A DNA stretch of 64,000 bases from Natronoarchaeum philippinense (GTDB lineage: Archaea; Halobacteriota; Halobacteria; Halobacteriales; Natronoarchaeaceae): assembly GCF_900215575.1 (NCBI RefSeq), contig NZ_OBEJ01000001.1, positions 62,001-126,000 on the forward strand, in the 5' to 3' direction. Under the pieces are notes generated by a model. That model saw only the letters and a list, made by a program, of their open reading frames with translations. It searched no databases and had not been told where the DNA came from. Within the stretch, counting starts at the first letter, position 1. Each line of letters starts with the position of its first letter. The position numbers and the translations under genes are program-made. Of the stretch, positions 33,406-33,700 are shown in pieces.

Positions 33406-33490
33406 GCGCGGGTTGCCGAGCTAGGCCAAAGGCGCAGCGCTTAGGACGCTGTCCCGTAGGGGTCCGCCGGTTCAAATCCGGTCCCGCGCA
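33406..33490 (+). tRNA. tRNA-Leu (TAG)
   Basis: An 85-base class II tRNA. The acceptor stem pairs GCGCGGG with CCCGCGC, the anticodon stem CAGCG/CGCTG frames the loop CTTAGGA with anticodon TAG, and a long variable arm follows, as required for leucine. The T-arm has CCGGTTCAAATCCGG. CCA is not encoded. It is followed by partial copies of its own 3' end. Confidence 0.94.
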
Positions 33491-33700
33491 TACCGTCTCG
33501 AACGTCAGTGAGAGACGTGTCTGCGCAACAAACGGATTTGAACCCTAGAAGACGAACGGAGTGAGTCTTCGTCCGGTTCAAATCCGGTCCCGCGCATTGC
33601 TGCTGCGAGCAAGTCCGCGAGCAGCAGCAATCGTAACGATCGGATTTGATGCCCAGAGGACGAGCAACGCGAAGTCCCCGTGGTTCAAATCCGGTCCCCA
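33491..33700 (+). repeat. array of direct and inverted copies of the tRNA-Leu 3' end with hairpins
   Basis: Direct copies of the tRNA 3' end lie at 33573-33597 (25 bases identical to 33467-33491) and 33682-33698 (17 bases). Inverted pieces lie at 33533-33544 (CGGATTTGAACC) and 33641-33649 (CGGATTTGA), each pairing with the next direct copy. Four hairpins occur: CGTCTC/GAGACG (33494-33517), GAAGAC/GTCTTC (33548-33570), ATTGCTGCTGC/GCAGCAGCAAT (33596-33631) and GGAC/GTCC (33658-33677). Their loops share a GARC...YGA pattern. No protein gene is visible here. Confidence 0.85.

Follow-up and report, generated by a model that had tools for sequence, protein, structure and literature searches.

What lies behind the tRNA-Leu(TAG) gene of Natronoarchaeum philippinense? 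In the 64-kb stretch of DNA analysed here (the window), this gene is followed by alternating direct and inverted pieces of its own 3′ end with hairpins between them. A first-pass annotation had read this arrangement as either a new kind of tRNA-derived repeat array or multiple nested insertions. The repeat pieces were recovered where it had placed them, and they belong to two consecutive units.

33406–33490, + strand: tRNA-Leu(TAG) gene, the anchor of the array (ARAGORN; Rfam tRNA, 48 bits).
33467–33491, + strand: X0, the 3′ end of the tRNA from the T-arm through the discriminator base and 1 nt beyond, source of the downstream copies (repeat search, D1).
33494–33517, + strand: h1 of unit 1, a hairpin with the tandem G-A core CGAAC..GTGAG (hairpin scan; fold).
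33522–33544, + strand: X′ of unit 1, the inverted tRNA 3′ end (repeats I2/I3; fold).
33545–33572, + strand: h2 cassette of unit 1 (CTAGAAGACGAACGGAGTGAGTCTTCGT), with a regular hairpin inside at 33548–33570 (hairpin scan; fold).
33573–33597, + strand: X1, a direct copy of the tRNA 3′ end, 25/25 identical to 33467–33491 (repeat search).
33596–33631, + strand: h1 of unit 2, a hairpin with an 11-bp stem and a tandem G-A core (hairpin scan; fold).
33638–33649, + strand: X′ of unit 2, the inverted T-arm GATCGGATTTGA (repeats I1/I6).
33650–33681, + strand: h2 cassette of unit 2 (fold).
33682–33698, + strand: X2, a second direct copy, truncated, with the T-arm intact and the acceptor tip lost (third D1 copy).

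The inverted piece of unit 1 consists of TGCGC (33522–33526), complementary to the acceptor tip, and CGGATTTGAACC (33533–33544), complementary to the T-arm; in the fold the two are separated by an unpaired stretch. Each inverted piece pairs with the next direct copy, as had been claimed. In unit 1 the piece at 33533–33544 is paired at 12 of 12 positions, and in unit 2 the piece at 33638–33649 is paired with 33685–33696 at 11 of 12, with a core (33641–33649) that pairs at 9 of 9. Shuffling had been proposed as a check on this pairing. Against dinucleotide shuffles of the + strand the unit folds have z = −5.84 and −5.81, and 0 of 200 shuffles were as good for either unit, i.e. the pairing is beyond chance. 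Chance pairing is excluded by these shuffles and by two further controls described below, swapped tRNAs and a reversed pattern. Within the window, tandem-GA hairpins with a stem of at least 6 bp are confined to the two of unit 1 and the first of unit 2. Only about 85 nt of hairpins and inverted piece lie between the copies, which leaves no body of a gene-bearing element, and nothing unusual adjoins the array: the nearby genes encode a cytidylyltransferase-like protein, a TFIIB-repeat protein and a proteasome subunit.

Is this array a peculiarity of tRNA-Leu? The architecture is one case of a family that stands behind many tRNA genes. The family has the layout X-h1-X′-h2-X, in which X stands for the final ~22 nt of the tRNA gene and X′ for an inverted copy, and h1 and h2 are hairpins. 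Of 65 haloarchaeal genomes 37 contain a strict T-arm pattern, and of 231 other Halobacteriota none does; the reversed-pattern control gave 0 matches in every genome scanned. In a scan of public genomes, 70 of 81 pattern sites were directly behind a same-strand tRNA; these covered 26 anticodons, which rules out a speciality of tRNA-Leu. Most of the remaining haloarchaeal sites lie behind a partial or cut-off tRNA, and the few bacterial matches are different things. The collected set comprises 219 distinct units from 35 tRNA types, many of them picked up via the perfect T-arm pattern, so counts from it are biased towards intact T-arms. About 40% of tRNA genes have a unit in the genome of the window (G000; 16/41) and in that of a congener (G001; 11/27), where the tRNA sets come from an Rfam search and, for G001, from the 30 best-scoring tRNA loci only; the control with the wrong tRNA end gave 48/1327 (3.6%). 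A T-run 3′ of the tRNA was also tried as a marker of units and showed no clear difference.

The copies are specific to the tRNA that they follow. An own-tRNA copy was found in 178 of 223 cases, compared with 24–36 when ends were swapped (in a sample enriched for the pattern), and the acceptor of the copy agrees with its own tRNA in 177 of 198. The recurrence at 35 anticodon types, a copy number that varies across species and this specificity all bear out the proposal of a new kind of tRNA-derived repeat array. No description of the units was found in a literature search that covered open-access papers. They appear to be a widespread repeat class at essential genes, undescribed within the open-access literature searched.

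Some related observations can be recorded here. Foreign acceptor ends were considered as general traces of movement and set aside, with a single convincing case: in Haloferax denitrificans a copy behind tRNA-Asp (L172) has an acceptor end resembling that of tRNA-Arg(cct), possibly a trace of movement between tRNAs. The X-h1-X′-h2-X layout is seen outside the haloarchaea on a Woesearchaeota contig (SURF_65, L138), behind tRNA-Ser(cga). A second class of unit is found in G000 at tRNA-Ala(ggc), Gly(tcc), Arg(gcg) and Arg(ccg) (L078, L076, L108 and L073). There the acceptor end, not the T-arm, is repeated directly and inverted, and the hairpins are of opposite strandedness.

How do units come and go? 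At tRNA-Leu(TAG) the number of copies ranges from 0 to at least 3 among the loci compared, and the hairpins differ; an array that is unchanged everywhere was not found. When G000 and G001 are aligned, the loci of tRNA-Phe, Val(gac), Thr(cgt), Tyr and Asp differ by one complete unit. The extra unit stands exactly at the tRNA 3′ end and is followed by the common flank or by an older unit. These differences do not prove gains, because precise loss between the 22-bp direct repeats could produce the same empty sites, and the direction of single events is thus unproven. In arrays of at least two units the tRNA-proximal copy is the better one in 15, the distal in 2, and they are equal in 22. The idea of multiple nested insertions survives only in part: whole units are gained or lost and the best-preserved copy adjoins the tRNA, but the units were not left behind as nested scars by ordinary elements that bear an integrase.

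This last point deserves some explanation. In archaea tRNA 3′ ends are the usual att sites, and integrases are known to target three regions, the T stem-loop among them (PMC8371274). The units could accordingly be what remained after ordinary elements had integrated into tRNA genes and been deleted, and the G000 genome does hold 13 integrase-domain matches. A search for a tyrosine integrase with a matching att site had been suggested; none of these integrase-domain matches lies inside the window, and PF00589 has no match there. The units are also regular in size and architecture, and their hairpin types recur at many tRNAs. Genome G043 offers a direct comparison. Its tRNA-Leu(TAG) is occupied by an element of 29 kb in which an integrase gene is apparent (read by eye). 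The element inserted by way of a 52-nt block of identity, and a unit now lies at its far end. This unit was displaced, hence units are chromosomal flanks that were already present and not scars of the G043 element; since that element inserted differently and moved a unit aside, ordinary att scars do not explain the units. We consider deleted integrase elements a most improbable source.

Another idea is that the host keeps the units as decoys, whose spare tRNA ends absorb integrating elements and so shield the tRNA. In G030, what reads by eye as an integrase gene does lie behind copy X and not behind the tRNA itself. However, the element of G043, and apparently those of L165, L182 and L188, entered the tRNA itself, and a decoy function seems very unlikely.

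We also asked whether mobile elements carry the cassettes. The h2 cassette had no match in phage records. Seven IMG/VR contigs have the pattern; those that are recognisable are bifidobacterial-type prophages or a tRNA cluster, and none of these is haloarchaeal. Carriage by haloviruses was rejected on these two results. A plasmid search returned one match, in Natronorubrum bangense (96% coverage, 82% identity). The Bifidobacterium-type prophage sequences (L281–L284, L286, L126 and L127) contain a perfect palindrome of a tRNA 3′ part, which encloses a short loop; the orientation of this loop varies between contigs. Like the units, these are inverted tRNA-end copies around a short loop, but they are prophage-borne and single, lack h1 and form no array behind a tRNA.

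Do the hairpins act as RNA or as DNA? Their core is conserved, with tandem G-A pairs in CGARC..GYGAG and inner pairs GC/GC or AC/GT. The core alone is not specific to tRNAs, with 58 exact matches in G000, below the reversed-pattern control. Clusters of tandem-GA hairpins remote from tRNA genes were seen at G000:C2:283400-285800 (L233) and G000:C1:681800-684100 (L236). If the units were transcribed together with the tRNA and acted as a structured RNA, for instance as a processed trailer or as a regulator of tRNA maturation, this would agree with the strong folds, with copies that end at the RNase Z cleavage point and with the strand bias of the tandem-GA hairpins (173 on the tRNA-sense strand, 20 antisense, 3 in shuffled sequence). 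The way in which the pairs vary points elsewhere. Among intermediate pairs A-C outnumbers G-T (21 versus 8) with no preference for G-U, and this is unlike RNA because G-U (G-T) would then be favoured. Changes in the copy mostly have no matching change in X′, entire h2 hairpins are found inverted, many tRNAs have no unit in either sister species, and in an Rfam search of the array no family except tRNA reaches the gathering threshold. The pair types and the flips disfavour an RNA element, and we regard a co-transcribed structured RNA as distinctly unlikely. The commonest loops are the triloops GAA, GGA, GCA and GTA. Loops of the GNA type are known from very stable DNA minihairpins.

The two hairpins of a unit behave differently. 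The nearest h1 in other genomes sits at the same tRNA type in 40 of 53 cases (expected 6.5%), while the nearest h2 is at the same tRNA in only 32 of 166 and mostly at other tRNAs. Near-identical h2 hairpins are found at different tRNAs; in one case an identical 47-nt h2 stands behind tRNA-Arg(tct) and behind tRNA-Asp, each time flanked on both sides by the local T-arm bases. The h2 type of unit 1 in the window is also present in G001, G027 and G033. Adjacent units have a common h1 in 14 of 44 cases and a common h2 in 2 of 44. Overall, h1 stays with its tRNA and h2 is shared among different tRNAs.

The h2 hairpin is also found inverted. Among 138 h2 hairpins of assigned orientation, four are antisense, and three of the four were confirmed by similarity to other h2 once reverse-complemented; no flipped h1 was seen. 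At tRNA-Ile(gat) the tRNA and the flanks adjoining the cassette agree between G000 and G001, but the stretch bounded by GATTTGAA and TTCAAATC runs in opposite orientations in the two. The breakpoints therefore lie within these 8-bp inverted T-loop sequences (GATTYGAA / TTCRAATC); the G000 copy has one additional base in its T-loop stretch (TTCACAATC). Thus h2 occurs in both orientations between inverted repeats, as an invertible segment does, and the breakpoints are compatible with the known T stem-loop target site of integrases. Together the swapping and the in-place flips of hairpins point to what would be an undescribed form of small-scale DNA rearrangement.

We propose that the units are DNA hairpin cassettes which can be exchanged, with recombination at T-loop sequences, a reading to which we give a probability of about one half, the recombination itself being inferred. 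We count as shown that X is copied from the local tRNA end, that units vary as wholes, that the arrays are polar, and that h2 is shared between tRNAs and inverted with breakpoints in the T-loop. T-loop sequences would serve as the recombination sites: units would be gained or lost between the directly oriented tRNA and copy, and the h2 cassette would be inverted or traded between the oppositely oriented X′ and X. This might be the work of a putative recombinase acting in trans, or of template switching driven by the hairpins. Several points count against cassette recombination. No recombinase was linked to the arrays, the empty sites could stem from precise loss, the h2 cassette has no match in phage records, and the recognisable viral contigs with the pattern are not haloarchaeal. 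Loop flips can arise by template switching during replication with no enzyme, and the local match of X′ must come from selection or correction within the hairpin.

Enzyme-free replication errors might even account for the whole pattern. Hairpins at tRNA ends would provoke template switching, which would duplicate X, make and correct X′, flip loops and swap h2 via short matches. Such switching is known to flip loops and to correct imperfect palindromes, and the hairpins are long and stable. In addition, the T-loop base R57 is equal in tRNA, X′ and copy in 191 of 219 units, though shared h2 hairpins have the same or a different R57 about equally (27 versus 26). Template switching does not readily explain that nearly identical h2 hairpins occur at different tRNAs across genera, that the units are restricted to haloarchaea, or that the copies end exactly at the 3′ terminus of the mature tRNA; overall we think it unlikely. 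A fuller form of cassette recombination is plausible but somewhat less likely than not: haloarchaea would harbour gene-less cassettes at tRNA ends genome-wide, and a putative recombinase, crossing over at the universal T-loop, would insert units and flip and trade cassettes between tRNA genes.

Several known systems have something in common with the units. The att sites of archaeal and bacterial tyrosine integrases in tRNA genes likewise have a duplicated tRNA 3′ end and a T stem-loop target (PMC8371274). The units differ from these in being ~100 bp long and gene-less, with an inverted copy and swapped hairpins, and the G043 element used another block. Their palindromic T-stem around a 7-bp T-loop is like the core site of a tyrosine recombinase. 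Integrons hold arrays of gene cassettes with folded attC hairpins, structure-defined sites, array polarity and cassette exchange. The folded X′-h2-X resembles such a hairpin recombination site and might likewise be defined by its structure; hairpins, a polar array beside one site and the trading of cassettes are seen in the units. The units have no genes, no linked integrase (intI) was found beside the tRNA-Leu(TAG) array, and the equivalent of attI would be the tRNA itself. Downstream of E. coli tyrT there are tandem 178-bp repeats (rtT RNA), each ending in a copy of the tRNA 3′ end, as in the units; to our knowledge this is one locus without an inverted copy or swappable hairpins. Repeats of the rtT type are transcribed, and their RNA is set free when the tRNA is processed. 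REP/BIME and MITE sequences are, like the units, short non-coding palindromic repeats, which are probably moved in trans; the ends of the units, however, copy the local tRNA, and their location is bound to tRNA 3′ ends. Insertion of the CRISPR/casposase (Cas1) type, which duplicates its target, was considered solely for its similar polar growth.

If cassette recombination is correct, the universal T-loop would be a common point of exchange between tRNA genes. An archaeal order with genetically tractable members would then possess a natural DNA system whose segments can be inverted and exchanged. The annotation of haloarchaeal genomes would also change, for genomic islands and att sites as well as for the 3′ flanks of tRNA genes.

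A parallel to the tRNA-end copies was observed at protein genes. A terminator-like element, TTTTTGGCCSAGNTTTTT..hairpin..AAAAAGGT, recurs at L239, L246, L247, L257–L260, L267 and L275 (G000, G001, G003 and G005). In some cases the protein gene that precedes the element has its 3′ end repeated behind it, over 30–115 nt and mostly at 91–100% identity.
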